From Terebella lapidaria (lineage: Eukaryota; Annelida; Polychaeta; Terebellida; Terebellidae), in the NCBI GenBank assembly GCA_949152475.1, contig OX424560.1:42734719-42798718 (forward strand): DNA of 64,000 nucleotides, in the 5' to 3' direction. Within the stretch, counting starts at the first letter, position 1, and each line of letters starts with the position of its first letter. The notes below the pieces were generated by a model. That model worked only from the letters and a program-made list of their open reading frames with translations. It did not search any database and was not told the DNA's origin. The translations under genes were made by a program, and so were the position numbers. Below, piece after piece: positions 39,879 through 64,000 of the stretch.

Positions 39879-41244
39879 TTACTTGACGAAATCAAAGATT
39901 TTGTCAAGTATGTTGATCGGTTCCGTTTGTTTGTATGTTTGTTTGTTTGTTTGTGTGCGCTCTACAGGCCACAGTTCTCATTGGAAATTCATGAAATTTG
40001 GTAGAAAGGTTTTAGGCTGAAATAGGAAGGGCCCAGATTCTTTATTAAGCTCAAGGTCAAATAGCAAGGTCAAGGTCACACAAAACGTCGAAAACACATA
40101 AGTGCTCATAACTCCAGTTCTAATCGTCGTAGAGACTTCAAATTAAGTGCATATTGTAGATATATTCGAGTTCTATCTTCCGTGACCTTGACCTTGACCT
40201 TTGACCTTGACCTTAAGAAGTTCGCCTGAGGTCGAAGTCAAGGTCAAAATACGAAGGTCGGCGCAGTATATCGAGTAGTATATCGTTGGAAAGGTCTTGA
40301 GCTCCTGATTCCAGTGGTATCTCATTTTTGGTGCTGCGACTTAAACTGACGTCACAATGACGTATTAAACGTCAATAATCCGAAATTTCAAAGGGTCATA
40401 ACATCGTCAATAGTGTATGGAATCCCTTGAAATTTGATATGCATTTTGACAGCATTGACCTCTACGAACTCAAGTACAAAAGTCAAAGGTCAAGGTCAAG
40501 GTCATCGAAATCCCAGAAAAACACGTTTTCTGTAATAGCATCCGTTTGAATCATCGTGGGCTCATGAAATGTGAACCATGTCATTTAGAAGGGGTATGGC
40601 AATCAGATAAATATGAAATTTCCATGATTGACCTCGAACTTTGTCTATAATCTGACAAAACTTAATCAGAATCCTATGAGTTTTGGGGATTTTACAGATA
40701 TTTTTTATGTTTTAATGGCTCCAATTTTCACACATTTACTGAACATTAATTTTAAAGAATTTCCTTGCAGTCAGTTGCAGTGTTATTTCTAGTTTATGGT
40801 CCACTTTTCACATTTGGAATAACTTGAAAACTCGCCGAGATATCAAAGTAGAAAGAGCAGTGGGGTGAATTTGATTCTCAATCCGTTCAGATGGTAATAA
40901 GCTGTAGAAACGATTACCCCCTGTGGACATGTCCCCTTCTAAATATACACACTCGGTTGCGAAGTAGTACAGTATATCATATATGTATCCAAGTGCACAT
41001 CTTAAACAACATTTCTTTTGTTTTTTGACTCAGAGGTGTCCAACTGGTATGATAAAGTCTAAAACTCATGTCTAAATACAGTCTGGGTCAAGCAACAGGC
41101 CACTTTATATCAGAAATATTGGGCATGACGAACAGGGTTTTGTGAGCACCGGGTTTGTGAGCATTGTGAGCACTGTTACAGGTTTATAGTACATGTAGTG
41201 CATTGCCTAAGGCCCAATAGCTTGTATATATGCACCAGATATTA
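39879..41244 (+). mobile_element. Unit 1 of the 1.36-kb tandem array
   Basis: Palindrome 39880-39910 (arm TACTTGACGAAATC; one G:T-type mismatch), GTTT tract, GTGCGCTCTACAGGCCACAG, two to three diverged internal repeats rich in AGGTCA, then the shared tail module (from 40768), and an end ..ATGCACCAGATATTA. No tRNA-like domain. The tail carries an older-looking version (CCCCTTCTAAATA, GCGAAGTAGTACAG) than units 2-6. Confidence 0.75.
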
Positions 41245-42596: not shown

Positions 42597-43952
42597 TTAC
42601 TTGACGAAATCAAAGATTTTGTCAAGTATGTTGATCGGTGCCGTTTGTTTGTATGTTTGTTTGTTTGTTTGTTTGTGTGCGCTCTACAGGCCACAGTTGT
42701 CATTGGAAATTCATGAAATTTAGTAGGAAAATTTCTGGATGAGAAAGGAAGGTCCCAGATTCTTTGTCAAGCTCAAGATCAAATAACAAGGTCAAGGTCA
42801 TGCAAAACGTCGAAAACACATAAGTGCTCATAACTCCAGTTCTAATCGTCGTAGAGACTTCAAATCCAGTGGTTATTGTAGATATACTCGAGTTCTATCT
42901 TCCGTAACCTTGACCTTGACCTTTGACCTTGACCTTGAGAAGTTCGCCTGAGGTCGAAGTCAAGGTCAAAATACGAAGGTCGGCGCAGTATATCGAGTAG
43001 TATATCGTTGGAAAGGCCTTGAGCCCCTGATTCCAGTGATATCTCATTTTTGGTGCTGCGACGTAAACTGACGTCACAATGACGTATTAAACGTCAATAA
43101 TCCGAAATTTCAAAGGGTCATAACATCGTCAATAGTGTATGGAATCCCTTGAAATTTAATATGCATTTTGACAGCATTGACCTCTACGAACTCAAGTACA
43201 AAAGTCAAAGGTCAAGGTCAAGGTCATCGAAATCCCAGAAAAACACGTTTTCTGTAATAGCATCCGTTTGAATCATCGTGGGCTCATGAAATGTGAACCA
43301 TGTCATTTAGAAGGGGTATGGCAATCAGATAAATATGTCAATTCCATGATTGACCTCGAACTTTGTCTATAATCTGACAAAACTTAATCAGAATCCTATG
43401 AGTTTTTTGGATTTTACAGATATTTTTTATGTTTTCATGGCTCCAATTTTCACACATTTACTGAACATTAATTTTAAAGAATTTCCTTGCAGTCAGTTGC
43501 AGTGTTATTTCTAGTTTATGGTCCACTTTTCACATTTGGAATAACTTGAAAACTCGCCGAGATATCAAAGTAGAAAGAGCAGTGGGGTGATTCTGATTCT
43601 CAATCCATTCACACGCCAATAAGCTGTAGAAACGATTACCCCCTGTGGACATGTACCGTCTAAATATACACACTCGGTCGCCTAGTATATATGTATTCAA
43701 AGGGATATCTCAAACAACATTCCTTTTGTTTTCAGACTCAGAGGTATCCAACTGATATAATAAAGCCTAAAACTCATGTCTAAATACAGTCTGGGTCAAG
43801 CGACAGGCCACTTTATATCAGAACTTTTGGGGATGACGAACAGGGGTTTGTGAGCACCGGGTTTGTGAGCACTGTGAGCACTGTTACAGGTTCATAGTAC
43901 ATGTAGTGCATTGCCTAAGGCCCAATAGCTTGTATATATGCACCGGATATTA
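42597..43952 (+). mobile_element. Unit 3 of the tandem array, uninterrupted 1,356-bp reference
   Basis: Palindrome 42598-42628, leader GTTGATCGGTGCCGTTTG, GTTT tract with five TTTG after GTATG, internal repeats, tail module from 43491, end ..GCACCGGATATTA. This is the uninterrupted copy against which the three split copies are measured. Confidence 0.8.
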
Positions 43953-44003
43953 TTACTTGACGAAATCAAAGATTTTGTCAAGTATGTTGATCGGTGCCGT
44001 TTG
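43953..44003 (+). mobile_element. Unit 4, first 51 bp (split)
   Basis: Palindrome 43954-43984 and leader to GTGCCGTTTG. Continues at 46246 after a nested element. 51 + 1,305 = 1,356 bp. Confidence 0.85.
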
Positions 44004-46245
44004 TTACTTGACGAAATCAAAGGTTTTGTCAAGTATGTTGATCGGTTCCGTTTGTTTGTATGTTTGTTTGTTTGTTTGTTTGTTTGTTTGTTTGTTTGTG
44101 TGCCCTCTACAGGCCACAGTTCTCATTGGAAATTCATGAAATTTAGTAGAAATTTTCTAGGCTGAAATAGGAAGGTCCCAGACTCTTTGTTAAGCTCAAG
44201 GTCAAATAACAAGGTCAAGGTCATGCAAAACGACGAAAACACATAAGTGCTCATAACTCCAGTTCTAATCGTCGTAGAGACTTCAAATCAAGTGCATATT
44301 GTAGATATACTCGAGTTCTATCTTCCGTGACTTGACCTTGACCTTTAACCTTGACCTTGAGAAGTTCGCCTGAGGTCGAAGTCAAGGTCAAGTACGAAGG
44401 TCGGCGCAGCATATCGAGTAGTATATTGTTGGAAAGGTCTTGAGCCCCTGATTCCAGTGATATCTCATTTTTGGCGCTGCGACGTAAACTGACGTCACAA
44501 TGACGTCATAAACGTCAAAAATCCGAAATTTCAAAGGGTCATAACATCGTCAATAGTGTATGGAATCTCTTGAAATTTGATATGCACTTTGACAGCATTG
44601 ACCTCTACGAACTCAAGTACAAAGGTCAAAGGTCAAGGTCAAGGTCATCGAAATCCCAGAAAAACACGTTTTCTGTAATAAAATCCGTTTGAATCATCGT
44701 GGGCTCATGAAATTTGAACCATATCATTCAGAAGAGGTATATCAATCAGACAAATATGTCAATTCCATGATTGACCTCGAACTTTGTCTATAATCTGACA
44801 AAACTTAATCAGAATCATATGAGGATTTTGGGTTTTACAGATATTTTTTATGTTCTCATGGCTCTAATTTTCACAAATTTACTGAACATTAATTTTGAAG
44901 CATTTCCTTGCGGTCAGTTGCAGTGTTATTTCTAGTTTATGGTCCACTTTTCACATTTGGAATAACTTGAAAACTCGCTGAGATATCGAAGGAGAAAGAG
45001 CAGTGGGGTGAATTTGATTCTCAATCCGTTCAGATGCTAATAAGCTGTAGAAACGATTACCCCCTGTGGACATGTCCCCTTCTAAATATACACACTCGGT
45101 TGCGAAGTAGTACAGTATATCATATATGTATCCAAGTGCACATCTCAAACAACATTTCTTTTGTTTTTTGACTCAGAGGTGTCCAACTGGTATGATAAAG
45201 TCTAAAACTCATGTCTAAATACAGTCTGGGTCAAGCGACAGGCCACTTTATATCAGAAATATTGGGCATGACGAACCGGCATAGCAACCGGCCCCATTCC
45301 CGGTTTTATAGCAGTAATCTGTTTCATGACCAAAGATCCTGTGCATGCACCAGATATGAGTGGCAACAAAATCACTCCCATCATAAGCAAAATTGCATGC
45401 TTCACTCTTTTGTCTTTTCACACTCTAGCGTCCACAATTTTTGCGCTAGCATCCCCAAACATTTTTGATGTACAGCTATCCGCACTGTAACCGCACTGCA
45501 CGTTTTTGAAGAAAGTTACTTCATTGATAACGTCACTAAAAATTCTTGAAATCTCGTAAAATCCCTATCTTTAACAAGGGGCAAATTTTCAAAAATTCAC
45601 ACATCAGTCAATTTTATAGCAGTACCTCTGAAATTCAGTTCATTAATATATGTTGATATTGTCCATCGAATTGCAAAATTTTACTTGGATCGGTTGAACG
45701 TCAATGACGTCACGACGTAAAACGTCAATTTTCTAAATAGGGCTATAAATCGGAAAGTATTTGTCGTACAGAGAAGCGGATTGCACCTTTGGAAAGCTCG
45801 TTGAATTCTGGTTTAGGAGGCTGCTGTCCGATACTTTTCCGTCATGATACATTTTTCGCTATGACGTCATAAACGTAAGGCCGGTCATATCAATTTTTCG
45901 ACATTTCAGCAAACATTCAAACCTACACCGTGCACTCAAATTTGAAGGTATTGGACTGTGATTATGAGAACATATGTGGAATATTAATACCCAGCCATAT
46001 GCCGAGTTTCAACATGCTAGGTGCAACGTCAATGACGTCATGACGTAAAACGTCAATTTTCAAAATGGAGATATATTATATATTGTAAAGTATTCGTCAT
46101 ACAGAGAAGCGGATTGTGTGGGAAGATTCATGGCTGGCAGAGGAGGATCCCATACTCTTTATCGAGCTGAAGGTCACATCTCATAGGACAAGGTCAGGAT
46201 CGGTTCAGTAAACATTTCGTCAAGCTTACGACCTATGGTCGCTGG
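44004..46245 (+). mobile_element. Composite Helentron-like element nested in unit 4
   Basis: 2,242 bp. 5' palindrome 44005-44035 (TTGACGAAATC); 3' ACATTTCGTCAAG with hairpin CGACC/TAT/GGTCG (46229-46241), so the ends match. The front half resembles the host unit (AGGTCA-rich repeats, tail module from 44914). From about 45,410 it becomes 328-bp-repeat sequence (AACGTCAATGACGT at 45697 and 46025). A short stretch at 46,110-46,200 looks like a different internal repeat. It appears to be a fusion of two families. Confidence 0.7.
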
Positions 46246-47550
46246 TTTGTATGTTTGTTTGTTTGTTTGTTTGTGTGCGCTCTACAGGCCACAGTTGTCA
46301 TTGGAAATTCATAAAATTTAGTAGGAAAATTTCTGGATGAGAAAGGAAGGTCCCAGATTCTTTGTCAAGCTCAAGATCAAATAACAAGGTCAAGGTCATG
46401 CAAAACGTCGAAAACACATAAGTGCTCATAACTCCAGTTCTAATCGTCGTAGAGACTTCAAATCAAGTGGATATTGTAGATATACTCGAGTTCTATCTTC
46501 CGTAACCTTGACCTTGACCTTTGACCTTGACCTTGAGAAGTTCGCCTGAGGTCGAAGTCAAGGTCAAAATACGAAGGTCGGCGCAGTATATCGAGTAGTA
46601 TATCGTTGGAAAGGTCTTGAGCCCCTGATTCCAGTGATATCTCATTTTTGGTGCTGCGACGTAAACTGACGTCACAATGACGTATTAAACGTCAATAATC
46701 CGAAATTTCAAAGGGTCATAACATCGTCAATAGTGTATGGAATCCCTTGAAATTTAATATGCATTTTGACAGCATTGACCTCTACGAACTCAAGTACAAA
46801 AGTCAAAGGTCAAGGTCAAGGTCATCGAAATCCCAGAAAAACACGTTTTCTGTAATAGCATCCGTTTGAATCATCGTGGGCTCATGAAATGTGAACCATG
46901 TCATTTAGAAGGGGTATGGCAATCAGATAAATATGTCAATTCCATGATTGACCTCGAACTTTGTCTATAATCTGACAAAACTTAATCAGAATCCTATGAG
47001 TTTTTTGGATTTTACAGATATTTTTTATGTTTTCATGGCTCCAATTTTCACACATTTACTGAACATTAATTTTAAAGAATTTCCTTGCAGTCAGTTGCAG
47101 TGTTATTTCTAGTTTATGGTCCACTTTTCACATTTGGAATAACTTGAAAACTCGCCGAGATATCAAAGTAGAAAGAGCAGTGGGGTGATTCTGATTCTCA
47201 ATCCATTCACACGCCAATAAGCTGTAGAAACGATTACCCCCTGTGGACATGTACCGTCTAAATATACACACTCGGTCGCCTAGTATATATGTATTCAAAG
47301 GGATATCTCAAACAACATTCCTTTTGTTTTCAGACTCAGAGGTATCCAACTGATATAATAAAGCCTAAAACTCATGTCTAAATACAGTCTGGGTCAAGCG
47401 ACAGGCCACTTTATATCAGAACTTTTGGGGATGACGAACAGGGGTTTGTGAGCACCGGGTTTGTGAGCACTGTGAGCACTGTTACAGGTTCATAGTACAT
47501 GTAGTGCATTGCCTAAGGCCCAATAGCTTGTATATATGCACCGGATATTA
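46246..47550 (+). mobile_element. Unit 4, remaining 1,305 bp (split)
   Basis: Resumes in the GTTT tract exactly where 44003 stopped and runs to ..GCACCGGATATTA. The TTTG count after GTATG (five) equals that of unit 3. Nearly identical to units 3, 5 and 6. Confidence 0.85.
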
Positions 47551-47601
47551 TTACTTGACGAAATCAAAGATTTTGTCAAGTATGTTGATCGGTGCCGTTT
47601 G
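47551..47601 (+). mobile_element. Unit 5, first 51 bp (split)
   Basis: Palindrome 47552-47582 and leader to GTGCCGTTTG; continues at 49485. Confidence 0.85.
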
Positions 47602-49484
47602 TTACTTGCCGGAATCTACGATTTCGGCAAGTATGTTGGTCTGTTCGTGGATGGATGGATGGATGGATGTGTTTGTTTGTTTTCACTCTAGCGTCCACAG
47701 TTCTAGGTCGAATCCGTTCATATTAAATACTCAATATCGGTAGGTTACTGGGCAGGCACCGCACTATTTTGGTGAATCTAGGTCAAAGGTCAAGGTCAAG
47801 GTCAAGCAAAACGTCGAAAACACATAAGGGACCATAACTCCGGTTCTAATCGTCCTAGAGACTTCAAACCAAGTTCATATTGTAGATATACTCGAGTTCT
47901 ATCTTTTGTGACCTTGACCTTGACCTTTGACCTTGACCTTGGGAAGTTCGCCTGAGGTCGAATATTTGACCTTGGAGGTCACCTCCTCCGATTTTCGATC
48001 TGATGCTTGGAAACGATGTGGGACTGGTCCCTCATGGTCAGTATCAATTTTTAGCGCGATCGGTCAATCCGTTATGACGTAATTGACGTTTCTATGGCAA
48101 CGAAATCGGTCCCATTATAAGCCAAATTGCATTTTCAAGCTGTCCATGCTGATAAAAGCGTCAATAATGTGCGTAAAAATCCAATGATAAACCTGTTAAT
48201 AAGCAAGGATGACTTCTTTTGATCCACGAAATTTCAAGGTCGTAGGTCGAAAGTCAAGGTCAATATTGACCCGCAAGCGAAAACCATGTAGGTCACTATA
48301 TCTCAGGAAGTAAGCAAGATAGAGACACGAAAGTAAATCCACAGTATTGCACTCACTTAGCCTAACAACTTTTATATTTACACCTAAGGCGTATGAGCGA
48401 TAGCCTTTGCAAGCGCCTGAGGTCGAAGTTGACCTAAAAAATGACCTTGACCTTGACCTTTTGCAAAAATATCGAGTAGTAGCTCGTTTGGAAGGTCTTT
48501 GAGAGTAGTTTCCAAATCTGTTGTTATTTTCAGAATCGGACGTCAATTGACGTCATAATGACGTCAAACGTGATTTCAGACTGATATTCAGGCCTTTTGA
48601 GTGTCAGATGTGCAAAGATATAACATTTACTGCAGATCTAACAGATGCAAACGATGTGGTTTCTTTCTATGATGGTCTCTATCAATTTTTAGCTCAATCG
48701 ATATATCCGTTTTGACGTAATTGACGTTTTTGTGGCAACAAATCTGTGAAATTTCAAAGGAAACTCATTATTTGAAGATATGAATTTGTACGGTGATAAT
48801 ATAACATATATAAACAGACTTTTATCATGCATATTCAAAAACTCCATTCACAGTATGTTTGCAGCATAGAATTGATGACAAATGACGTAAGTCAAGGTCA
48901 TGCAAAATGTCTAAAACACAGAGGTGGCCATAACTCCGGTTCTAAGCGTCCCAGAGTCTTCAAATCAAATGCATATTTTGGATAAACTCGAGTTCTATCT
49001 TCTGTGACCTTGACCTTGACATTTGACCTTGACCTTGAGAAGTTCGCCTAAGGTTAAATTCAAGGTCAAGTACGAAGGTCAGCCCACCACATTGAGTAGT
49101 ATATCGTTGGAAAGGCCTTGAGCCTCCGATTCCAATGATATTTTATTTTTGGCGCTATAACGTACACTGACGTCACAGTGACGTCATAAACGTCAAATTC
49201 TTGAAATTTCAAAAGGCCACAACATCGTCAATAGTGTATGGAATCCCTTGAAACTTGGTATGCATATTGACAGCATTGACCTCTACGAATAGAAGTACAA
49301 AGGTCAAGGTCAAAGTCAAGAAAAAGGTGAAAATATCATAAATGACAATAACTTCGGAACTAATCATCGTAGAGACTTCAAACTAGGACCATATTGTAAC
49401 GTATCAAAAGGCCGTTCTTATGCGACCTTGAATGTCACCCTTGACCTTCAGAATTCCGGCAAGTGCGTCGCCTATGGCGTCTCG
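47602..49484 (+). mobile_element. Helentron-like element with both ends, nested in unit 5
   Basis: 1,883 bp. 5' palindrome 47603-47633 (arm TACTTGCCGGAATC), a GGAT tetranucleotide tract in place of GTTT, TTCACTCTAGCGTCCACAG, several diverged internal repeats rich in AGGTCA and ATTGACGTCATAATGACGTC. 3' GAATTCCGGCAAGT with hairpin CGCC/TAT/GGCG (49469-49479) and TCTCG. A second copy of equal length lies at 53764-55646. No protein. Confidence 0.8.
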
Positions 49485-50789
49485 TTTGTATGTTTGTTTG
49501 TTTGTTTGTTTGTGTGCGCTCTACAGGCCACAGTTGTCATTGGAAATTCATGAAATTTAGTAGGAAAATTTCTGGATGAGAAAGGAAGGTCCCAGATTCT
49601 TTGTCAAGCTCAAGATCAAATAACAAGGTCAAGGTCATGCAAAACGTCGAAAACACATAAGTGCTCATAACTCCAGTTCTAATCGTCGTAGAGACTTCAA
49701 ATCAAGTGGATATTGTAGATATACTCGAGTTCTATCTTCCGTAACCTTGACCTTGACCTTTGACCTTGACCTTGAGAAGTTCGCCTGAGGTCGAAGTCAA
49801 GGTCAAAATACGAAGGTCGGCGCAGTATATCGAGTAGTATATCGTTGGAAAGGTCTTGAGCCCCTGATTCCAGTGATATCTCATTTTTGGTGCTGCGACG
49901 TAAACTGACGTCACAATGACGTATTAAACGTCAATAATCCGAAATTTCAAAGGGTCATAACATCGTCAATAGTGTATGGAATCCCTTGAAATTTAATATG
50001 CATTTTGACAGCATTGACCTCTACGAACTCAAGTACAAAAGTCAAAGGTCAAGGTCAAGGTCATCGAAATCCCAGAAAAACACGTTTTCTGTAATAGCAT
50101 CCGTTTGAATCATCGTGGGCTCATGAAATGTGAACCATGTCATTTAGAAGGGGTATGGCAATCAGATAAATATGTCAATTCCATGATTGACCTCGAACTT
50201 TGTCTATAATCTGACAAAACTTAATCAGAATCCTATGAGTTTTTTGGATTTTACAGATATTTTTTATGTTTTCATGGCTCCAATTTTCACACATTTACTG
50301 AACATTAATTTTAAAGAATTTCCTTGCAGTCAGTTGCAGTGTTATTTCTAGTTTATGGTCCACTTTTCACATTTGGAATAACTTGAAAACTCGCCGAGAT
50401 ATCAAAGTAGAAAGAGCAGTGGGGTGATTCTGATTCTCAATCCATTCACACGCCAATAAGCTGTAGAAACGATTACCCCCTGTGGACATGTACCGTCTAA
50501 ATATACACACTCGGTCGCCTAGTATATATGTATTCAAAGGGATATCTCAAACAACATTCCTTTTGTTTTCAGACTCAGAGGTATCCAACTGATATAATAA
50601 AGCCTAAAACTCATGTCTAAATACAGTCTGGGTCAAGCGACAGGCCACTTTATATCAGAACTTTTGGGGATGACGAACAGGGGTTTGTGAGCACCGGGTT
50701 TGTGAGCACTGTGAGCACTGTTACAGGTTCATAGTACATGTAGTGCATTGCCTAAGGCCCAATAGCTTGTATATATGCACCGGATATTA
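49485..50789 (+). mobile_element. Unit 5, remaining 1,305 bp (split)
   Basis: Starts TTTGTATG at the point where 47601 stopped and ends ..GCACCGGATATTA. 51 + 1,305 = 1,356 bp, the exact length of unit 3. Confidence 0.85.
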
Positions 50790-50856
50790 TTACTTGACGA
50801 AATCAAAGATTTTGTCAAGTATGTTGATCGGTGCCGTTTGTTTGTATGTTTGTTTG
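50790..50856 (+). mobile_element. Unit 6, first 67 bp (split)
   Basis: Palindrome 50791-50821, leader and two TTTG after GTATG. Interrupted 16 bp further into the tract than units 4 and 5. The remaining three TTTG and the body are at 60999-62287. Confidence 0.85.
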
Positions 50857-50923
50857 TTACTTGCCGGAATCTAAAGATTTCGGCAAGTATGTTGCTCTGT
50901 TCGTGGATGTGTTTGTGTGTTTG
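50857..50923 (+). mobile_element. 5' end of outermost nested element
   Basis: Palindrome 50858-50889 (TACTTGCCGGAATC arms, four-base centre), leader and tract, then interrupted by the next element. The 34-bp scrap at 60965-60998 is the likely rest, giving a 101-bp deletion derivative. Confidence 0.6.
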
Positions 50924-52266
50924 TTACTTGCCGGAATCTAAAGATTTCGGCAAGTATGTTGGTCGGTTTGTGGATGTGTTTGTTTGTGTGTTTGTTTGTT
51001 TGTTTGTTCGCACTCTAGCGTCCACAGTTCTTGATTAAAAGCTTCCAAAATTCGTGTGCAGAATCTGTAGTATACCGCGCAGGCACCGCACTATTTTGGT
51101 GTGTCTAGGTCAAAGGTCAAGGTCAAGGTCAAGCAAAACGTTGAAAACACATAAGTGGCCATAACTTCGGTTCTAATGGTCCTAGAGACTTCAAATTAAG
51201 TTCATATTGTAGATAAACTCGAGTTCTATCTTCTGTGACCTGGACCTTGACCTTTGACCTTGACCTTGAGAAGTTCGCCCGAGGTCGAATATTTGACCTT
51301 GGAGGTCACCTCCTCCGATTTTCGATCTGATGCTTGGAAACGATGTGGGACCGGTCCCTCATGCTCAATGTCAATTTTTAGCCCGATCGGCCAATTCGTT
51401 ATGACGTAATTGACGTTTCTATGGCAACGAAATCGGCCCCATTATAAGCGAAATTGCATGTTTCAAGCTGTCGATGCTGATAAAAGCGTCAATAATGTGC
51501 GTAAAAATCTGATAATATACCAGTTTATAGTCAAGAACGAGTTCTTTTGTTCCAGGAAATTTCAAGGTCAAAGGTCGAAATTCAAGGTCAATATTGACCT
51601 GCAAGTGAAAACAATGTGGGTCACTATATCTCAGGAAGTAAGCAAGATAGAGACACGAAAGTAAATCCACAGTATTGCACTCACTTAGCCTAACAACTTT
51701 TGCATTTACACCTAAGGCGTATGACCGATAGCCTTTGCAAGCGCCTGAGGTCGAAGTTGACCTCAAAAATGACCTTGACCTTGACCTTTTGCAAAAATAT
51801 CGAGTAGTAGCTCGTTCGAAAGGTCTTGGAGAGTACTTTCAAAATATGTTGCCATTTTCGGAATCGGACGTCAATTGACGTCATAATGACGTCAAACGTG
51901 ATTTCAGACTGACATTTTGGCCTTTTGAGTGTCAGATGTGCAAAGTTATAACATTTACTGCATATTTAGCACATGCAAACGATATGGAGTCGTCCTGTGA
52001 TGGTCTCTGTCAATTTTTAGCACAATTGATATATCCGTTTTGACGTAATTGACGTTTTTGTGGCAACAAATCGGTAAAATTTCAAAGGAAACTCATCATT
52101 TGAAGATATTATGATCTTGTCTGGTTATAATATAACATGTATAAACACGATTATATCATGCATATTTAAAAACTCCATTCACAGTAAGTTAGCAGTATAG
52201 AATTGACGACAAATGACGTCATAATTGCGTACTTAGTCCGGCAAGTGTGTGGCCTATGGCCTCTCG
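50924..52266 (+). mobile_element. Helentron-like element with both ends
   Basis: 1,343 bp. 5' palindrome 50925-50956, GTTT tract, TTCGCACTCTAGCGTCCACAG-like block, AGGTCA-rich repeats, CRE-like segments. 3' AGTCCGGCAAGT with hairpin GGCC/TAT/GGCC (52251-52261) and CTCTCG. Same family as 55647-56922 and 59689-60964. Confidence 0.75.
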
Positions 52267-53714
52267 TTTATCTGTTACTGCTCTACAGGTCGCAATTGTA
52301 CAGTGATTGTTACGTAACTTGGGGTATGTAATCTGTAGGATAACAGGCAGGCACCGCACACTTTTGGAGAATATAGGCCAAAGGTCAAGGTCAAGGTCAC
52401 GCAAAACGTCAAAAACACATAAGTGCTCATAACTCCAGTTCTAATTGTCGTAGAGACTTCAAATCAAGTGCATATGGTAGATATACTCGAGTTCTATCTT
52501 TTGTGACCTTGACCTTGACATTTGACCTTGACCTTGAGAAGTTCGCCTGAGGTCGAATATTTGACCTTGGAGGTCACCTCCTCCGATTTTCGATCTGATG
52601 CTTGGAAACGATGTCGGACCGGTCCCTTATGGTCAATGTCAATTTTTAGCGCGATCGGTCAATCCGTTATGACGTAATTGACGTTTCTATGGCAACGAAA
52701 TCGGTCCCATTATAAGCGAAATTGCATGTTTCAAGCTGTCCATGCTGATAAAAGCGTCAATAATGTGCGTAAAAATCTAATGATACACCTGTTTATAGCC
52801 AAGGACGAGTTCTTTTGTTCCGCGAAATTTCAAGGTCAAAGGTCGGAAGTCAAGGTCAATATTGACCCGCAAATGAAAACCATGTAGGTCACTATATCTC
52901 AGGAAGTAAGCAAGATAGAGACACGAAAGTAAATCCACAGTATTGCACTCACTTAGCCTATCAACTTTTGTATTTACACCTAAGGCGTATGGCCGATAGC
53001 CTTTGCAAGCGCCTGAGGTCGAAGTTGACCCAAAAAATGACCTTGACCTTGGCCTTTCGCGAAAATATCGAGTAGTAACTCGTTTGAAAGGTCTTCGGGA
53101 GTAGTTTCGATATATGTTCTTATTTTTGGAATCTGACGTCATATGACGTCATAATGACGTGAAACGTGATTTTATCATACTTCAATTGATTGTTTACATG
53201 AGATGCATAAACCATTTATGATTATTGTTGATCCGGTGCTCTGGTAAGTATTGGGGATACCTACTGAAGCTATTTGACAAATATCAGTTCAATAATTGCA
53301 GTGGTAATGGCCTAATTGACCTTTTTATGACGGAAAATTGGAGAAAATTTCATTTGTTTGTCTTTTCATACTCATAGCGTCCACATTTGTTGCTTGATTC
53401 TTTTCAAATTTGATGTAGATATTCTGTAGGATAATGGCTCTTGACAGAATGATTTTGAGAAAAATAGCTCTATTGATGACGTCACAAAAGATCCGAATCC
53501 TATCAGTCTTTCATGACCACAAACTGCTTATGCTAGGAAAGAAATATAATACTTTTTTCAATGTTTTCCATCAACTATACAAAATCTAGAAAAATGCCAT
53601 TACTCATATTTAAAATAACCAGATGCATCAACTTTGCAAAAAATTCAAAGTCTTTGGTAAAAGTTCAAGGTCATTGCCAGCTATTCCGGCAAGTTAGTCG
53701 ACTATGTCGGTTCA
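52267..53714 (+). mobile_element. Element lacking 5' palindrome
   Basis: Begins TTTATCTGTTACTGCTCTACAGG, internal repeats of the same kind, and a second start-like block within it (about 53351-53393, GTTTG then CATAGCGTCCACA), so it may be two truncated pieces. 3' ATTCCGGCAAGT with hairpin CGAC/TAT/GTCG (53699-53709) and GGTTCA. The middle part is repeated in 62,776-63,720. Confidence 0.65.
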
Positions 53715-53763
53715 TTAGTTGACGAATTAAAAATTCGTCAACTATGTTGGTCAGTTCCGTTTG
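53715..53763 (+). mobile_element. Bare 5' end, TAGTTGACGAATT type
   Basis: Perfect palindrome 53716-53744 (arm TAGTTGACGAATT, three-base centre) that differs from the TACTTG types at both arms, followed by TATGTTGGTCAGTTCCGTTTG and an inserted element. No matching 3' end is seen in the window. Confidence 0.7.
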
Positions 53764-55646
53764 TTACTTGCCGGAATCTACGATTTCGGCAAGTATGTTG
53801 GTCTGTTCGTGGATGGATGGATGGATGTGTTTGTTTGTTTTCACTCTAGCGTCCACAGTTCTAGGTCGAATCCATTCATATTACATACTCAATATCGGTA
53901 AGTTACTGGGCAGGCACCGCACTATTTTGGTGAATCTAGGTCAAAGGTCAAGGTCAAGGTCAAGCAAAACGTCGAAAACACATAAGGGACCATAACTCCG
54001 GTTCTAATCGTCCCAGAGACTTCAAACCAAGTTCATATTGTAGATATACTCGAGTTCTATCTTTTGTGACTTTGACCTCGACGTTTGACCTTGACCTTGA
54101 GAAGTTCGCCCGAGGTCGAATATTTGACCTTGGAGGTCACCTCCTCCGATTTTCGATCTGATGCTTGGAAACGACGTGGGACTGGTCCCTTATGGTCAGT
54201 ATCAATTTTGAGCGCGATCGGTAAATCCGTTATGACGTAATTGACGTTTCTATGGCAACAAAAACAGTCCCATTATAAGTGAAATTGCATGTTTGAAGCT
54301 GTCCATGCTGATAAAAGCGTCAATAATGTGCGTAAAAATCTATTGATATACCTATTTATAGCCAAGGACGAGTTCTTTTGTTCCACTAAATTTCAAGGTC
54401 AAAGGTCGAAAGACAAGGTCAATATTGACCCGCAAGCAAAAACCATGTAGGTCACTATATCTCAAGAAGTAAGCAAGATAAAGACACGAAAGTAAATCCA
54501 TAGTATTGCACTCACTTAGCCTAACAACTTTTATATTTACACCTAAAGCGTATGACCGATAGCCTTTGCAAGCGCCTGAGGTCGAAGTTGACCTAAAAAA
54601 TGACCTTGACCTTGACCTTTTGCAAAAATATCAAGTAGTAGCTCGTTTGAAAGGTCTTTGAGAGTAGTTTCCAAATCTGTTGTTATTTTTGGAATCGGAC
54701 GTCAATTGACGTCATAATGACGTCAAACGGGATTTCAGACTGATATTCAGGCCTTTTGAGTGTCAGATGTGCAAAGTTATAACATTTACTGCAGATCTAA
54801 CAGATGCAAACGATGTGGTTTTTTTCTGTGATGGTCTCTATCAATTTTTAGCTCAATCGATATATCCGTTTTGACGTCATTGACGTTTTTGTGGCAACAA
54901 AAAGGTGAAATTTCAAAGGAAACTCATTATTTGAAGATATTATGAATTTGTACGGTGATAATATAACATATATAAACAGATTTTTATCATGCATATTCAA
55001 AAACTCCATTCACATTATGTTTGCATCATAGAATTGATGACAAATGACGAAAGTCAAGGTCATGCAAAATGTCTAAAACACAAAGGTGGCCATAACTCCG
55101 GTTCTAATCATCCCAGAGTCTTCAAATCAAGTGCATATTTTAGATGAACTCGAGTTCTATCTTCTGTGACCTTGACCTTGACATTTGACCTTGACCTTGA
55201 GAAGTTCGCCTAAGGTGAAATTCAAGGTCAAGTAGGAAGGTCAGCGCACCAAATTGAGTAGTATATCGTTGGAAAGGCCTTGAGCCTCTGATTCCAATGA
55301 TATTTTATTTTTGGCGCTATAACGTACACTGACGTCACAGTGACGTCACAAACGTCAACTTCCCGAAATTTCAAAAGGCCACAACATAGTCAATAGTGTA
55401 TGGAATCCCTTGAAACTTGGTATGCATATTGACAGCATTGACCTCTACGAATAGAAGTACAAAGGTCAAGGTCAAAGTCAAGAAAAAGGTGAAAATATCA
55501 TAAATGACAATAACTTCGGAACTAATCATCGTAGAGACTTCAAACTAAGACCATAGTGTAACGTATCAAAAGGCCGTTCTTATGGGACCTTGAATGTGAC
55601 CTTTGACCTTCAAAATTCCGGCAAGTGCGTCGCCTATGGCGTCTCG
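53764..55646 (+). mobile_element. Second copy of the 1,883-bp element
   Basis: Palindrome 53765-53795, GGAT tract, same internal order and same 3' end (CGCCTATGGCG then TCTCG) as 47602-49484. Scattered substitutions and small indels against that copy, but the total length is the same. Confidence 0.8.
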
Positions 55647-56922
55647 TTTGTTTGTTTGTTTGTTCGCACTCTAGCGTCCACAGTTCTTGCCCGATTTTCT
55701 CCAAATTTCGTGTGATTATTCTCTAGAATACCGCGCAGGCACCGCACTATTTTGGTGAAGCTAGGTCAAAGGTCAAGGTCAAGGTCAAGCAAAACGTTGA
55801 AAACACATAAGTGGCCATAACTTCGGTTCTAATGGTCCTAGAGACTTCAAATTAAGTTCATATTGTAGATAAACTCGAGTTCTATCTTCTGTGACCTTGA
55901 CCTTGACCCTTGACCTTGACCTTGAGAAGTTCGCCCGAGGTCGAACATTTCACCTTGGAGGTCACCTCCTCCAATTTTCGATCTGATGCTTGGAAACGAT
56001 GTGGGACCGGTCCCTCATGCTCAATGTCAATTTTTAGCCCGATCGGCCAATTCGTTATGACGTAATTGACGTTTCTATGGCAACGAAATCGGCCCCATTA
56101 TAAGCAAAATTGCATGTTTCAAGCTGTCGATGCCGATAAAAGCGTCAATAATGTGCGTAAAAATCTGATAATACACCATTTTATAGTCAAGGATAAGTTC
56201 TTTTGTTCCAGAAAATTTCAAGGTCAAAGGTCGAAATTCAAGGTCAATATTGACCTGCAAGTGAAAACCATGTGGGTCACTATATCTCAGGAAGTAAGCA
56301 AGATAGAGACACGAATGGAAATCCACAGTATTGCACTCACTTAGCCTAACAACTTTTGCATTTACACCTAAGGCGTATGGCCGATAGCCTTTGCAAGCGC
56401 CTGAGGTCGAAGTTGACCTCAAAAATGACCTTGACCTTGACCTTTTGCAAAAATATCGAGTAGTAGCTCGTTTGAAAGGTCTTAGAGAGTACTTTCCAAA
56501 TATGTTATCATTTTCAGAATCGGACGTCAATTGACGTCATAATGACGTCAAACGTGATTTCAGACTGACATTTTGGCCTTTTGAGTGTCAGATGTGCAAA
56601 GCTATAACATTTACTGCATATTTAGCATACGCAAACGATGTGGAGTCGTCCTGTGATGGTCTCTGTCAATTTTTAGCACAATTGATATATCCGTTTTGAC
56701 GTAATTGACGTTTTTGTGGCAACAAATCGGTAAAATTTCAAAGGAAACTCATCATTTGAAGATATTATGATCTTGTCTGGTTATAATATAACATATATAA
56801 ACACGATTATATCATGCATATTTGAAAACTCCATGCACAGTAAGTTAGCAGTATAGAATTGACGACAAATGACGTCATAATTGCGTACTTAGTCCGGCAA
56901 GTGTGTGGCCTATGGCCTCTCG
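55647..56922 (+). mobile_element. 1,276-bp element copy, first of an identical pair
   Basis: Starts with a GTTT tract and TTCGCACTCTAGCGTCCACAG, no palindrome. Ends AGTCCGGCAAGT, GGCC/TAT/GGCC hairpin, CTCTCG. By eye it is identical to 59689-60964 over the full 1,276 bp. The minus-strand frame of 151 codons (56075-56530) is only present because the DNA is repeated. Confidence 0.75.
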
Positions 56923-57059
56923 TTACTTGACGAAATTAAATTTCGTCAAGTATGTTGGTCAGTTGAGTTTGTCTGTTTGTCTGTTTGTCTGTTTGTTTGT
57001 GTGCACTCTACAGGTCACAATTTTGGTCGTATCGTCATGAACCTTCACCAGAAGGTGGA

Positions 57060-58085
57060 CAATCAATTTCGTACCAAGTGGTAAACTTTTAGGAGGTCAA
57101 GGTCAAAAATTGAGGTCAAGGTCATAGAAAAGGTCAAAATCGAAAAATCGCGATAACTTCGCTTCTAATTGAGATTATTTTTTCTGGGTATTTTTATATT
57201 TTTCTATGGTCAATTCTGCATCATCTGATACATGTCCGATGGTCGTACGACCAAAATTCCCGATTTTCGGTCCTGGTCGAAAATTTGGGGGTCAAGAATT
57301 TAGGTTATTCCTGTCTCACAATATTCAAAATCATATTATAGAGCCAGGTTCCAATATATGTTGCTGATTTTTACTCAGGAGTTGTGCCTTATCACGCAGA
57401 ACAAGATCCTGAAGTTTCCGAGCTCAGGGTCTAGGATTAGAGTTAAGGTCATAGTAAAGGTCAAAATCGAAAAATCGTGATAACTCCGCTTCTAATCAAG
57501 ATTATTTTTTCTGTGTATTTTTATATTTTTCTATGGTCAATTCCGCATCACATGATGCATGTCTGATGGTCGTATGATCTAAACTCTCGATTTTCGGTCC
57601 AGGTCGAAAATTTGGGGGTCATGAACTTAGGTCTTGCTTGTCTCAATTTTCAAAACCCTATTGTAGAGCCACGATCCAATATATGTTTCTGATTTTTACT
57701 CAGGAGTTGTGCCTTCTCACGCAGAACATGACTGTGAAGTTATAGGGCTCAAGGTCAAGAATTACAGTTAAGGTCATAGTAAAGGTCAAAATTGAAAAAT
57801 CGTGATAACTCCGCTTGTAATCATGATTATTTTTTCTGATTATTTTTGTATTTTTCTATGGTCAAATCCGCATCATATGATACATGTCCGATGGTCGTAT
57901 GACCAAAACTCTGGATTTTCGGTCCAGGTCGAAAATTTGGGGGTCATGAATTTAGGTTTTTCCTGTCTCACAATATTCAAAACCACATTATAGAGCCAGG
58001 TTCCAATATATATTGCCGGATTTTACTCAGGAGTTGTGCCTGATCACGCAGAATAAGATTGTGAAGTTGTAGAACTCAAGGTCAC
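57060..58085 (+). repeat. Three 326-327-bp internal repeats
   Basis: TTTGGGGGTCA occurs at 57284, 57611 and 57936 (steps 327 and 325). Each repeat has GGTCAAAATCGAAAAATCG, TAACTCCGCTT, TTTCTATGGTCAATTCCGCAT and ATACATGTCCGATGGTCG. The last two blocks align with TATGGCCAATTCTGCAT and TGTATGGCCGACAG in the first array's 317-bp repeats. Confidence 0.8.
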
Positions 58086-58205
58086 GAGTTTTCCTGATCG
58101 AATTCTGCACGCTGCCAGTCCAATGTACAGCCATGGCATAATTCAGTGTTTATCCTGAGCGAAGTCTCTCCTACGCACTATACTTTACACGTGTTGAGTT
58201 TCAAT

Positions 58206-58292
58206 GAACAGAATGGCGCAGTCAGTAGAGGCGTTAGGTTTGGGTGCGGTGGGTCAGTGGTTCGATTCTCACTGTTGACTAATTTTTTTTTT
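58206..58292 (+). repeat. tRNA-Pro-like domain with T10 run
   Basis: A box TGGCGCAGTCAG, anticodon-loop TTTGGGT within TTTGGGTGCG (as in tRNA-Pro TGG) and B box GGTTCGATTCT. CAGTG and CACTG can pair around the B box. A run of ten T at 58283-58292 could end a pol III transcript of about 90 nt. No acceptor stem, so it is tRNA-derived, not a tRNA gene. Confidence 0.6.
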
Positions 58293-58764
58293 CTTCTAAA
58301 ATTCAATTCCAAATGACTTTCTGTTTCTGAGTGGTCTTGTAAGCATCCCAAACCTGCCATGCTTTATGTAATTCTATTGTTTCGAATTATAATGATCACC
58401 TTTGAAGGAAAAAACACTGTTCCACGAATAGCGACAAACTATTTTATCGGGCTTTCTAGTGGTATCATCAAAATCTAGTTTGTTCTTTATATTTAAAGTT
58501 ACAAGCCGCTTTAAATTCAGCATTACGGCCACAACTGTGAATGATCTGTGGTATTAGCTAACAAATGCATGACAAAAGGCGTGTACCAGATGATATGTCT
58601 GCTTCATATGATGCATGTGGGATTGGGGGTCTGGTAAGTTGCATGGCGAATGGCCCAGATTAAAACACTGTATCGTGTCATTTTACAGGGTCTCATTGGT
58701 TTCATTATGATCGAGAGATGCATGTTTTTGTCATAACGCGTTTGTGTTAACTCCATGCTTCATA

Positions 58765-59280
58765 GGGTATAAGCCAGAAATAGACTTGGGGATGCCTCAC
58801 ACGTTGAGGATTCCGTTTTAAGTGACGTCATTTCGCCAGATGTATGGTTGCCTAGGGAGACAACGCGAAGCGATATTGATCCACGTGCTGGTTTATTTTG
58901 CGCGTGTGGAAGTCTGGTTTTGGGAAAAGCAAAAATTCCGATGGTATTCCCCGGGATTTGGAGTAGAGAAAGGTTTTGCTGCATGTATGCTATGTCGGCA
59001 AATGCGATCTGAAAACGAGTTTGTGTTCAACGTCATTTTATGAAAAATTGGTACTATCATGCTCTATAGTGACCTAGATTTTATTGAAGTACTATGATTA
59101 TACTATCACACCCTGTCAACCGTTAAGTCCTAAATTTTTTTTTGGAAAGGTGAAACGCACACCCGAAGTTGCCCAATTTAACATTGATTTAAATGCAGCC
59201 AATAATTGGTCATTTCAACCCCATAGCCTTAAAATATTACCTAATTACAACTGTTTGTTAATATAAAAAACATTGATAAA
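58765..59280. other. Unique segment inside the 2.77-kb element
   Basis: About 0.5 kb without a match in the window, less AT-rich at 58,800-58,990. Overlapping frames of 73-74 codons exist on both strands (58822-59043 plus; 58760-58984 minus), but neither shows a recognisable motif. It might be captured host sequence. It lies between two segments shared with the first array. Confidence 0.45.
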
Positions 59281-59688
59281 AAGAAGACAAGCAATTATTA
59301 GGTCATATTTTAGGGCTGTGCAATCGCCACATGTCTAAGCCTCTCTATTTGTTTTGTCTACTTGTTGTCAATGTAATTTCATATTTGTACGGGAATATTT
59401 GCTGTTTGTTATTCGCTCATTTTTAGGCTATCGATATTTGTTTTTGGATTTTTGTAATTTTGATATATTTTAGGTTTTTTAGTAGTGGTATCATCAAAAT
59501 TTTGTGCCGTTAGCATGGTTAGAGGTAATATATTATGTTGATACATACGCAAACTAGATGTTTCAAATGATTCAGTTTCCAATGCTATATGTTGTCAGGG
59601 GATGCCATAAATGTGTAAATAATGAGTAAATGTTTTGAATGTAAACAAATGTGTAGATTTTCGTCAAGTGTCGGCCTATGGCCGATTT

Positions 59689-60964
59689 TTTGTTTGTTTG
59701 TTTGTTCGCACTCTAGCGTCCACAGTTCTTGCCCGATTTTCTCCAAATTTCGTGTGATTATTCTCTAGAATACCGCGCAGGCACCGCACTATTTTGGTGA
59801 AGCTAGGTCAAAGGTCAAGGTCAAGGTCAAGCAAAACGTTGAAAACACATAAGTGGCCATAACTTCGGTTCTAATGGTCCTAGAGACTTCAAATTAAGTT
59901 CATATTGTAGATAAACTCGAGTTCTATCTTCTGTGACCTTGACCTTGACCCTTGACCTTGACCTTGAGAAGTTCGCCCGAGGTCGAACATTTCACCTTGG
60001 AGGTCACCTCCTCCAATTTTCGATCTGATGCTTGGAAACGATGTGGGACCGGTCCCTCATGCTCAATGTCAATTTTTAGCCCGATCGGCCAATTCGTTAT
60101 GACGTAATTGACGTTTCTATGGCAACGAAATCGGCCCCATTATAAGCAAAATTGCATGTTTCAAGCTGTCGATGCCGATAAAAGCGTCAATAATGTGCGT
60201 AAAAATCTGATAATACACCATTTTATAGTCAAGGATAAGTTCTTTTGTTCCAGAAAATTTCAAGGTCAAAGGTCGAAATTCAAGGTCAATATTGACCTGC
60301 AAGTGAAAACCATGTGGGTCACTATATCTCAGGAAGTAAGCAAGATAGAGACACGAATGGAAATCCACAGTATTGCACTCACTTAGCCTAACAACTTTTG
60401 CATTTACACCTAAGGCGTATGGCCGATAGCCTTTGCAAGCGCCTGAGGTCGAAGTTGACCTCAAAAATGACCTTGACCTTGACCTTTTGCAAAAATATCG
60501 AGTAGTAGCTCGTTTGAAAGGTCTTAGAGAGTACTTTCCAAATATGTTATCATTTTCAGAATCGGACGTCAATTGACGTCATAATGACGTCAAACGTGAT
60601 TTCAGACTGACATTTTGGCCTTTTGAGTGTCAGATGTGCAAAGCTATAACATTTACTGCATATTTAGCATACGCAAACGATGTGGAGTCGTCCTGTGATG
60701 GTCTCTGTCAATTTTTAGCACAATTGATATATCCGTTTTGACGTAATTGACGTTTTTGTGGCAACAAATCGGTAAAATTTCAAAGGAAACTCATCATTTG
60801 AAGATATTATGATCTTGTCTGGTTATAATATAACATATATAAACACGATTATATCATGCATATTTGAAAACTCCATGCACAGTAAGTTAGCAGTATAGAA
60901 TTGACGACAAATGACGTCATAATTGCGTACTTAGTCCGGCAAGTGTGTGGCCTATGGCCTCTCG
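59689..60964 (+). mobile_element. 1,276-bp element copy, second of an identical pair
   Basis: Same sequence as 55647-56922 with an offset of 4,042 bp; the two copies flank the 2.77-kb element as direct repeats. Ends CTCTCG before a short scrap. Confidence 0.75.
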
Positions 60965-60998
60965 TTTGTTTGTTTGTTTGTTCGCACTCTAGCTCTCG
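60965..60998 (+). mobile_element. 34-bp deletion scrap of an element
   Basis: GTTT tract and TTCGCACTCTAGC joined directly to TCTCG, i.e. the start block fused to the last bases of a 3' end. Probably the closing piece of the element opened at 50857. Confidence 0.55.
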
Positions 60999-62287
60999 TT
61001 TGTTTGTTTGTGTGCGCTCTACAGGCCACAGTTGTCATTGGAAATTCATGAAATTTAGTAGGAAAATTTCTGGATGAGAAAGGAAGGTCCCAGATTCTTT
61101 GTCAAGCTCAAGATCAAATAACAAGGTCAAGGTCATGCAAAACGTCGAAAACACATAAGTGCTCATAACTCCAGTTCTAATCGTCGTAGAGACTTCAAAT
61201 CAAGTGGATATTGTAGATATACTCGAGTTCTATCTTCCGTAACCTTGACCTTGACCTTTGACCTTGACCTTGAGAAGTTCGCCTGAGGTCGAAGTCAAGG
61301 TCAAAATACGAAGGTCGGCGCAGTATATCGAGTAGTATATCGTTGGAAAGGTCTTGAGCCCCTGATTCCAGTGATATCTCATTTTTGGTGCTGCGACGTA
61401 AACTGACGTCACAATGACGTATTAAACGTCAATAATCCGAAATTTCAAAGGGTCATAACATCGTCAATAGTGTATGGAATCCCTTGAAATTTAATATGCA
61501 TTTTGACAGCATTGACCTCTACGAACTCAAGTACAAAAGTCAAAGGTCAAGGTCAAGGTCATCGAAATCCCAGAAAAACACGTTTTCTGTAATAGCATCC
61601 GTTTGAATCATCGTGGGCTCATGAAATGTGAACCATGTCATTTAGAAGGGGTATGGCAATCAGATAAATATGTCAATTCCATGATTGACCTCGAACTTTG
61701 TCTATAATCTGACAAAACTTAATCAGAATCCTATGAGTTTTTTGGATTTTACAGATATTTTTTATGTTTTCATGGCTCCAATTTTCACACATTTACTGAA
61801 CATTAATTTTAAAGAATTTCCTTGCAGTCAGTTGCAGTGTTATTTCTAGTTTATGGTCCACTTTTCACATTTGGAATAACTTGAAAACTCGCCGAGATAT
61901 CAAAGTAGAAAGAGCAGTGGGGTGATTCTGATTCTCAATCCATTCACACGCCAATAAGCTGTAGAAACGATTACCCCCTGTGGACATGTACCGTCTAAAT
62001 ATACACACTCGGTCGCCTAGTATATATGTATTCAAAGGGATATCTCAAACAACATTCCTTTTGTTTTCAGACTCAGAGGTATCCAACTGATATAATAAAG
62101 CCTAAAACTCATGTCTAAATACAGTCTGGGTCAAGCGACAGGCCACTTTATATCAGAACTTTTGGGGATGACGAACAGGGGTTTGTGAGCACCGGGTTTG
62201 TGAGCACTGTGAGCACTGTTACAGGTTCATAGTACATGTAGTGCATTGCCTAAGGCCCAATAGCTTGTATATATGCACCGGATATTA
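60999..62287 (+). mobile_element. Unit 6, remaining 1,289 bp (split)
   Basis: Resumes with three TTTG and GTGTGCGCTC, and ends ..GCACCGGATATTA. 67 + 1,289 = 1,356 bp, and 2 + 3 TTTG = 5 as in the intact unit 3, although 10,142 bp lie between the halves. Confidence 0.85.
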
Positions 62288-62393
62288 TTACTTGACGAAA
62301 TCAAAGATTTTGTCAAGTATGTTGATCGGTGCCGTTTGTTACTTGACGAAATCAAAGATTTTGTCAAGTATGTTGATCGGTTCCGTTTGTTTG
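62288..62393 (+). mobile_element. Unit 7 start and a second stacked 5' end
   Basis: Unit 7 opens at 62288 (palindrome 62289-62319) and is interrupted after 51 bp by another 5' end (62339; palindrome 62340-62370), itself interrupted at 62394. Their remainders are not in the window. Confidence 0.75.
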
Positions 62394-64000
62394 TTACCTG
62401 ACGAAATCAAAGATTTTGTCAAGTATGTTGATCGGTTCCGTTTGTTTGTATGTTTGTTTGTTTGTTTGTTTGTTTGTTTGTTTGTTTGTTTGTGTGCCCT
62501 CTACAGGCCACAGTTCTCATTGGAAATTCATGAAATTTAGTAGAAAATTTCTAGGCTGAAATAGGAAGATCCCAGACTCTTTGTTAAGCTCAAGGTCAAA
62601 TAACAAGGTCAAGGTCACGCAAAACGACGAAAACACATAAGTGCTCATAACTCCAGTTCTAATCGTCGTAGAGACTTCAAATCAAGTGCATATTGTAGAT
62701 ATACTCGAGTTCTATCTTCCGTGACCTTGACCTTGACCTTTGACCTTGACCTTGAGAAGTTCGCCTGAGGTCGAATATTTGACCTTGGAGGCCACCTCCT
62801 CCGATTTTCGATCTGATGCTTGGAAACGATGTGGGACCGGTCCCTCATGGTCAATATCAATTTTTAGCGCGATCGGTCAATTCGTTATGACGTAATTGAC
62901 GTTTCTATGGCAACGAAATCAGTCCCATTATAAGCGAAATTGCATGTTTCAAGCTGTCCATGCTGATAAAAGCGTCAATAATGTGCTTAAAAAACTAATG
63001 ATAAACTCGTTTATAGTCAAGGATAAGTTCTTGTGTTCCAAAAAATTTCAAGGTCAAAGGTCGAAAGCCAAGGTCAATATTGACCTGCAAGTGAAAACAA
63101 TGTAGGTCCCTACATCTCAAGAACTAAGAAAGATAGAAACGCGGAAGTAAATCCAAAGTATTGCACTCACTTAGTCTATCAACTTTTGTATTTACACCTA
63201 AGGCGTATGGCCGATAGCCTTTGCAAGCGCCTGAGGTCGAAGTTGACCCAAAAAATGACCTTGACCTTGACCTTTCGCGAAAATATCGAGTAGTAACTCG
63301 TTTGAAAGGTCTTCGGGAGTAGTTTCGATATATGTTCTTATTTTTGGAATCTGACGTCATATGACGTCATAATGACGTGAAACGTGATTTTATCATACTT
63401 CACTTGATTGTTTACATGAGATGCATAAACCATTCATGATTATTGTTGATCCGGTGCTCTGAGAAGTATTGGGGATACCTACTGAAGCTATTTGACAAAT
63501 ATCAGTTCAATAATTGCAGTGGTAATGGCCTAATTTACCTTTTTATGACGGAAAATTGGAGAAAATTTCATTTGTTTGTCTTTTCATACTCATAGCGTCC
63601 ACATTTGTTGCTTGATTCTTTTCAAATTTGATGTAGATATTCTGTAGGATAATGGCTCTTGACAGAATGGTTTTGAGAAAAATAGCTCTATTGATGACGT
63701 CACAAAAGATCCGAATCCTATCAGTCTTTGGGTCTTTCAAATACATTTTATGTGTCAATGGTTCCAATTTTCAAAAATTTACTGAACTTTCAATTACGAA
63801 GCTTTTCATGCAGTCAGTGGCAGTGTTAATTCTACTTTATGGTCCACTTTTCACATTTGGGATAAATTGAAAACTCGCCGAGATATCAAAGTAGAACGAG
63901 CAGTGGGGTGAATCTGATTCTCAATCCGTTCACACGCCAATAAGCTGCAGAAACGATTACCCCCTGTGGACATGTCCCCTTCTAAATATACACACTCGGT
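62394..64000 (+). mobile_element. Chimeric element, cut by window end
   Basis: Palindrome 62395-62425 (TACCTG variant on the left arm), a long GTTT tract (62451-62492) and unit-like front to about 62,775. Then the sequence of 52,556-53,520 takes over. From about 63,740 a different repeat and the shared tail module (63811 on, older CCCCTTCTAAATA version) follow. Parts of three elements are thus joined. Confidence 0.65.
62451..62492 (+). repeat. GTTT microsatellite
   Basis: More than ten TTTG repeats. Similar tracts sit at the same place in most elements (for example 13231-13262, 14962-14996, 44061-44099). A GGAT tract replaces it at 47,650 and 53,812. It is the place where the nested insertions occur. 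Confidence 0.85.

Follow-up and report, generated by a model that had tools for sequence, protein, structure and literature searches.

What splits three neighbouring copies of a tandem 1,356-bp unit in the genome of the annelid Terebella lapidaria, and why does it do so close to the start of each copy? The copies lie in a window of 64,000 nucleotides (C6:42734719-42798718; positions in the window are counted from its first letter) of an assembly of 761.6 Mb in 438 contigs. Here we show that the split copies rejoin exactly, that the elements share a terminal anatomy, and that the insertions share one site and one phase. The 1,356-bp units and their inserts are very probably non-autonomous Helentron-type rolling-circle transposons (HINEs), in which the (TTTG)n microsatellite beside the 5′ hairpin is a preferred landing site for relatives.

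Split units rejoin to the length of an intact unit

Three uninterrupted tandem units precede the split ones (Table 1), each with the 5′ terminus TTACTTGACG at its start and GATATTA at its end, and the third of them (unit 3) served as the reference. When the two arms of units 4, 5 and 6 are joined and aligned with unit 3, there are no gap columns and 4, 3 and 3 mismatches, respectively. Rejoined units 5 and 6 are identical to each other over 1,356 bp, while the neighbours at 39879-41244 and 41245-42596 are more distant from the rejoined units than unit 3 is. The microsatellite is likewise restored in each rejoined unit, reading TTTG TTTG TATG, then five TTTG, then TGTG. The original prediction, made from the letters of the window alone, that joining the arms of the three split units gives 1,356 bp and restores their TTTG count is therefore borne out, and the alignment with unit 3 that it proposed as a check reveals no extra or missing bases at the joins.

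When the genome was searched for the right arm of unit 5, at least 76 matches were listed, among them uninterrupted arrays of the 1,356-bp-type unit. Twenty regions holding matches were merged into 13 stretches, or 14 with the window, and these contain 54 uninterrupted units of 1340-1400 bp. Eight of the 54 are 1,356 bp long, seven on contig C1 and one in the window, and the best-matching intact 1,356-bp unit, on C1, differs from rejoined units 4, 5 and 6 at only 2, 1 and 1 bases. The recurrence of the 1,356-bp length in intact units elsewhere confirms that the split-unit observation exceeds chance.

Hosts of insertions at other loci also rejoin to match intact units. At C1 17034 the rejoined host, 1,356 bp long, shows zero mismatches against an intact unit of equal length; C15a 11895 (1,366 bp), C15b2 1215 (1,359 bp) and C5a 1741 (1,375 bp) again give no mismatch to an intact unit, and C16 13558 (1,366 bp) gives one. 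For the double insertion at C1 9241 the host is 1,356 bp with no mismatch, but here the expected length was used to place the last boundary (the other boundary leaves 11 mismatches), so that only the zero mismatches count. A motif scan for host resumptions, which favours short arms, yielded 13, with exact rejoining in seven, the left arm outside the fetched stretch in three, and one inside the composite insert of the window; window unit 6 and C1 9241 are extra to these 13. Exact rejoining both in the window and at other loci strongly upholds the clean insertion that had been claimed, and because the acceptor units are nearly identical they provide natural empty and filled Helentron sites at base resolution.

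Two further insertions were tried as exact length matches and rejected. The host of a family-2 insertion at 13195-14961 rejoins (13144-13194 + 14962-16692) to 1,782 bp versus 1,767 bp for the inserted element, with 4 mismatches and 17 gap columns between them, 16 of these in the microsatellite. The host of a 10,888-bp insert on C5b rejoins, with a clean join, to 2,689 bp that carry 107 mismatches and 43 gap columns against the nearest full copy tried.

Misjoined repeat copies could in principle mimic insertions, as the region is highly repetitive and two of its rejoined units are identical. However, C1, C5, C15 and C16 show the same exact pattern for elements and local unit lengths that differ among them, and this recurrence on several contigs makes an assembly error highly improbable, as judged at the level of the assembled sequence.

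The elements have the anatomy of HINEs

Terminal anatomy was examined in nine elements, and as HINE criteria we applied a 5′ subterminal inverted repeat (subTIR) 2-4 nt from the end and a 3′ palindrome lying 8-35 nt from the end. All nine elements carry a 5′ hairpin, an inverted repeat beside the 5′ subTIR that pairs at 10-12 of 12 bases, and a TTTG-rich microsatellite follows this hairpin. All nine also carry a 3′ palindrome with a perfect 4-6 bp stem and a 3-nt loop, starting 16-21 nt from the end. In eight of the nine the subTIR recurs at 11-12 of 12 bases 31-37 nt from the 3′ end, compared with a best match of 8-9 in 62 to 146 interior control windows. The 10 longest reading frames of the window (120 aa and more) contain no Pfam family above cut-off, in line with the non-coding nature of HINEs; Rfam gave no match at gathering scores, and no tRNA was found. 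On the basis of these 10 frames and of the Rfam and tRNA searches, a protein-coding or RNA content was rejected.

HINEs and DINE-1 elements are described as having subTIRs, an inverted repeat by the 5′ subTIR, a microsatellite in the left part, a 3′ palindrome, a TT or T-rich target without clear target-site modification, and no coding sequence (PMC4067079, PMC7492417). The elements studied here share the subTIRs, the hairpin, the microsatellite, the 3′ palindrome, the T-rich target and the non-coding body. They differ in that their bodies measure 1.3-2.8 kb, in that whole elements stand in tandem arrays, and in that the (TTTG)n of relatives receives most of the insertions, in one phase. Canonical Helitrons begin with 5′-TC, end with CTRR-3′ and insert between A and T. 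This class was rejected, as the observed ends are TTAC on the 5′ side and CTGG, TCTCG, GATTT or TTCA on the 3′ side, and the site is TTTG. Element bodies (for example window positions 42900-42940 and 43200-43230) also hold dense AGGTCA/TGACCT repeats and TGACGTCA-like motifs, which we take to resemble nuclear-receptor half-sites and CRE (cAMP response element) sites.

The inserts had been described as whole elements. This holds for the 2,242-bp and 1,883-bp inserts, each a single element with both ends, but not for the 10,142-bp insert, which is a composite of at least five. Insert 1 displays the 5′ hairpin, the TTTG microsatellite, a subTIR matching at 11/12, the palindrome CGACCTATGGTCG and the end GCTGG, and its family is that of the full last copies closing arrays elsewhere. 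Within the composite, element D (1,883 bp) is a relative of insert 2, identical to it in 1,802 of 1,887 columns, and the relatives of element F are unit-splitting inserts at C1, C15 and C16. The 10,142-bp insert is one site struck repeatedly, followed by a duplication, and not a single whole element.

This duplication, perfect over 1,276 bp (55647-56922 and 59689-60964), could also point to recombination, that is, part of the pattern could reflect TTTG tracts, or tandem units, exchanging unequally or slipping against one another, and not separate insertions. Repeated periods of 51 + unit at C6b, C3 and C5c, with no resumption in view, agree with such a process, as do a 42-bp duplication of a 5′ end at 13102-13143 and the matching, slippage-like 41-bp loss at 16692/16693 between repeated TCA. 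However, insert 1, insert 2 and the F-type inserts each bring both of their own ends, and their host units, intact apart from the insertion, resume exactly; recombination would need base-exact events at unrelated elements in several arrays. We therefore consider it rather improbable as a source of the pattern and retain insertion of HINEs as the explanation.

Insertions share one site, phase and orientation

The TTTG microsatellite holds all nine rejoined insertions, and their phase is the same. A comparison of the unit with all 14 stretches, which does not rely on the detection of short arms, shows its matches interrupted between unit positions 53 and 76, where a new 5′ end follows. Breaks in the body without a new 5′ end comprise a replaced segment at ∼359-786 in units of C15a, C14b, C3, C5c and the right end of the window, and one 381-1337 loss in C14a. 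The 14 stretches hold 169 5′ ends, of which 71 directly follow TTTG, 84 follow GATATTA, 7 follow GCTTCA and 4 abut another 3′ end; of the remaining three, one comes after GTCA and two after AACTTTA, which looks like an array junction belonging to another family. The 5′-end pattern was absent from the opposite strand of these stretches (the fetched ones being oriented by their array), and no 5′ end is immediately preceded by T (0/169), so the insertion phase is fixed.

The original prediction placed the insertions between T and T, which is compatible with the joins but too weak as a rule. The microsatellite accounts for 14 of the 138 TT steps of a unit and for 7 of its 20 TTTG, whereas all five occurrences of TTTGTTTG fall there. 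Because TT steps lie mostly outside the microsatellite, insertion between T and T alone fails to predict the site, while TTTGTTTG would predict it. Accordingly, the chance of finding 9/9 insertions in the microsatellite is 1e-9 if the assumed target is TT, 6e-9 for TTT, 8e-5 for TTTG, 0.04 for GTTTG and 1 for TTTGTTTG, the events not being fully independent.

Dispersed copies were chosen as best matches, with no random draw, and their sites were classed by eye. For insert 2, flanks were read at 10 of 13 full-length places outside the window among the matches listed, and for element F, 10 copies were read among 142 matches listed. Twelve of these 20 copies sit in the 5′ microsatellite of a relative, five just after a relative's 3′ end and three elsewhere in T-rich sequence (C2:49467944, C2:11536203 and C4:10366113); a T run precedes one of the 20 (C16:22645232). 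A copy of insert 2 at C6:42423971-42425853 is 100% identical over 1,883 bp and sits, likewise at the 51-bp position, in an array unit of another type, which argues for repeated site choice.

It is possible, and we suggest this only tentatively, that these are self-homing Helentrons, whose own (TTTG)n would be the main landing pad of relatives, with orientation and phase locked, the older 5′ end kept upstream, nested pairs mobile from the outer 5′ end, whole multimers entering one site, and the microsatellite kept as target. If the microsatellite is a kept landing pad, the regular presence of microsatellites in this superfamily would have an explanation. A limited literature search for earlier accounts of Helentron self-targeting turned up the works cited here, and self-homing may already be published.

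Element ends and a possible TT duplication

The ends of the inserts had further been said to be fixed to the base. This is not the case: moving any of the window inserts by −1 to +2 bases leaves the sequence unchanged and gives four equivalent placements, and T residues can therefore not be assigned to element or target. The insertions have a T-rich target, and the two extra T that accompany each of them fit either the element or a duplication. The same elements could thus run from AC to GG or CG, with a 2-bp TT target-site duplication copied on insertion; filled sites indeed carry two T more than the empty unit, and the letters are equal under both readings. Of the claim that there is no target-site duplication beyond possible T residues, the clean joins stand, but a TT duplication flanking AC...GG or AC...CG would be written in the same letters. 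We nevertheless regard such a duplication as unlikely, as A/TTACTTG (the slash marking the junction) is also found at 84 internal array junctions at which no target is involved, which fits TT as part of the element. The published HINE survey saw no target-site modification, yet could not place the Ts, and leaves the target modification of Helentrons open (PMC4067079).

A candidate enzyme and a possible mechanism

Searching the genome with the Helitron_like_N profile gave 150 scored matches from 234 candidates, with all listed rows above cut-off. Open frames reach 2,866 aa, stops occur in 4 rows among the matches listed, and one match lies ∼16 kb past the right end of the window. Close to the window, L041-L042 (C6:42806001-42820000) and L043 hold long uninterrupted Helitron-type frames of 2,230 and 2,310 aa. 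The L043 frame (2,309 aa as tested, the one frame examined for domains) contains OTU, Helitron_like_N, PIF1 helicase and a C-terminal Exo_endo_phos domain. It thus has the Rep-helicase-endonuclease order known for Helentrons. The title of the HINE survey calls Helentrons endonuclease-encoding (PMC4067079).

In the mechanism that we propose, new copies would enter the (TTTG)n of a relative in one orientation and one phase with no host bases lost, and the older copy would be split by the newcomer 51 to 79 bp from its start. A genome-encoded Rep-helicase-endonuclease would nick the element and roll it off as a single strand, which would then be joined at a T-rich single-stranded target. Tandem arrays, with their many 5′ ends and one 3′ end, may represent rolling-circle concatemers, and stacked 5′ ends may result from mobilisation of a nested pair that starts at the outer 5′ end and stops at the inner 3′ end.

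Several points weigh against our reading of the units and inserts as HINEs with a preferred landing site. The loci were chosen for holding the array, and the rates given above are thus not genome-wide. Among the ten resumptions with the left arm in view, two, C1 30917 (1360 or 1372) and C14a 8180 (1345), match no intact length in the pool, with one more in the composite. Element C has a subTIR of just 8/12, equalled in 8/61 control windows; being no better than the controls, it suggests that the 5′ and 3′ ends of this element may differ in origin. As TTTGTTTG occurs only in the microsatellite, a preference for the microsatellite and one for the 8-mer are indistinguishable. Finally, no 5′ terminus of the inserts' pattern is present in the 14 kb and 10 kb around two Helentron-type frames, so that no autonomous element with matching ends was found in these two stretches.

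Arrays and stacked 5′ ends

Five arrays close with a copy of ∼2.7 kb that bears the true 3′ end, while their inner copies end in GATATTA. The inner copies have their own ∼90-120-bp tail and are not plain truncations of the full copy. An internal cryptic 3′ end behind the short units was considered and rejected, as the short units have this tail of their own and only the stretch around GCACCAGATAT is common with the full copy. The C5a insert is itself an array (1,361 + 1,361 + 2,720 bp), a 5,442-bp trimer at one clean site, and with a host that rejoins to 1,375 bp with no mismatches it offers a test of one-step multimer integration. At C5b, six copies of 1,361 bp and one of 2,722 bp make up the 10,888 bp. 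Among 105 groups of 5′ ends, 46 are short stacks.

Self-insertion, stacked 5′ ends and arrays with one 3′ end are known already, and the point of interest here is the degree of mutual nesting. In plant genomes, tandem Helitron arrays combine multiple 5′ ends with just one 3′ end (Xiong et al., as described in PMC12628747). Here too inner copies lack the 3′ end and one full copy closes the array, but the termini are Helentron-type and the inner copies have their own tail instead of a simple cut. The FoHeli Helitrons of Fusarium have multiple 5′ termini, which are explained by self-insertion (PMC5148889). Short duplicated 5′ pieces are stacked before one body in our stretches as well; in contrast to the FoHeli account, the acceptor is the TTTG microsatellite, which is still visible, often with the inserted element and exact resumption. 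In Crassostrea gigas, complex and shuffled Helitron/satellite loci with arrays in different directions are described (PMC12628747). The loci analysed here similarly combine truncated, tandem and nested Helitron parts, but their orientation is uniform in the stretches examined.

Table 1. Coordinates of the tandem units, inserts and component elements in the window
Feature	Position	Strand	Description
5′ arm of another element	39813..39878	+	66 bp (TTACTTGCCGG); its TTTG directly abuts the array start at 39879
Three uninterrupted tandem units	39879..43952	+	39879-41244, 1,366 bp; 41245-42596, 1,352 bp; 42597-43952 (unit 3), 1,356 bp
Unit 4, split	43953..44003 and 46246..47550	+	left arm 51 bp, right arm 1,305 bp; rejoining to 1,356 bp
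Insert 1	44004..46245	+	2,242 bp; one HINE-like element, both ends present
Unit 5, split	47551..47601 and 49485..50789	+	left arm 51 bp, right arm 1,305 bp; rejoining to 1,356 bp
Insert 2	47602..49484	+	1,883 bp; one HINE-like element, both ends; subTIR 12/12, palindrome CGCCTATGGCG
Unit 6, split	50790..50856 and 60999..62287	+	left arm 67 bp, right arm 1,289 bp; rejoining to 1,356 bp
Insert 3, composite	50857..60998	+	10,142 bp; at least 5 elements plus a 1,276-bp perfect duplication
Elements A and B	50857..53714	+	B (50924-52266) inserted in the 5′ microsatellite of A (50857-50923 + 52267-53714)
Elements C and D	53715..56922	+	C (53715-53763 + 55647-56922, 5′ end TTAGTTGACG) interrupted by D (53764-55646)
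Element F	56923..59688	+	2,766 bp, adjoining the 3′ end of element C; about three central 325-bp repeats
Second copy of element C body	59689..60964	+	1,276/1,276 identical to 55647-56922
Remnant	60965..60998	+	34 bp, ending CTCTCG
Unit 7, start	62288..62492	+	three stacked 5′ ends: 51 bp, 55 bp, and a third with a long microsatellite

Other repeats of the window

Window positions 1-35500 hold a second tandem element family with the 5′ end TTACTTGGCAAAAT, the 3′ palindrome GCTCTTTGAGC and the end GATTGCTTCA. Its 27 3′ ends are followed by TTACTTGG in 7 cases, GTTGTATG in 15, TTTG in 4 and TCTTG in 1, and its array copies retain their 3′ ends, unlike the 1,356-bp units. Between this family and the 1,356-bp array, positions 35792-39766 contain ∼12 copies of a 328-bp tandem repeat with 77% matches.

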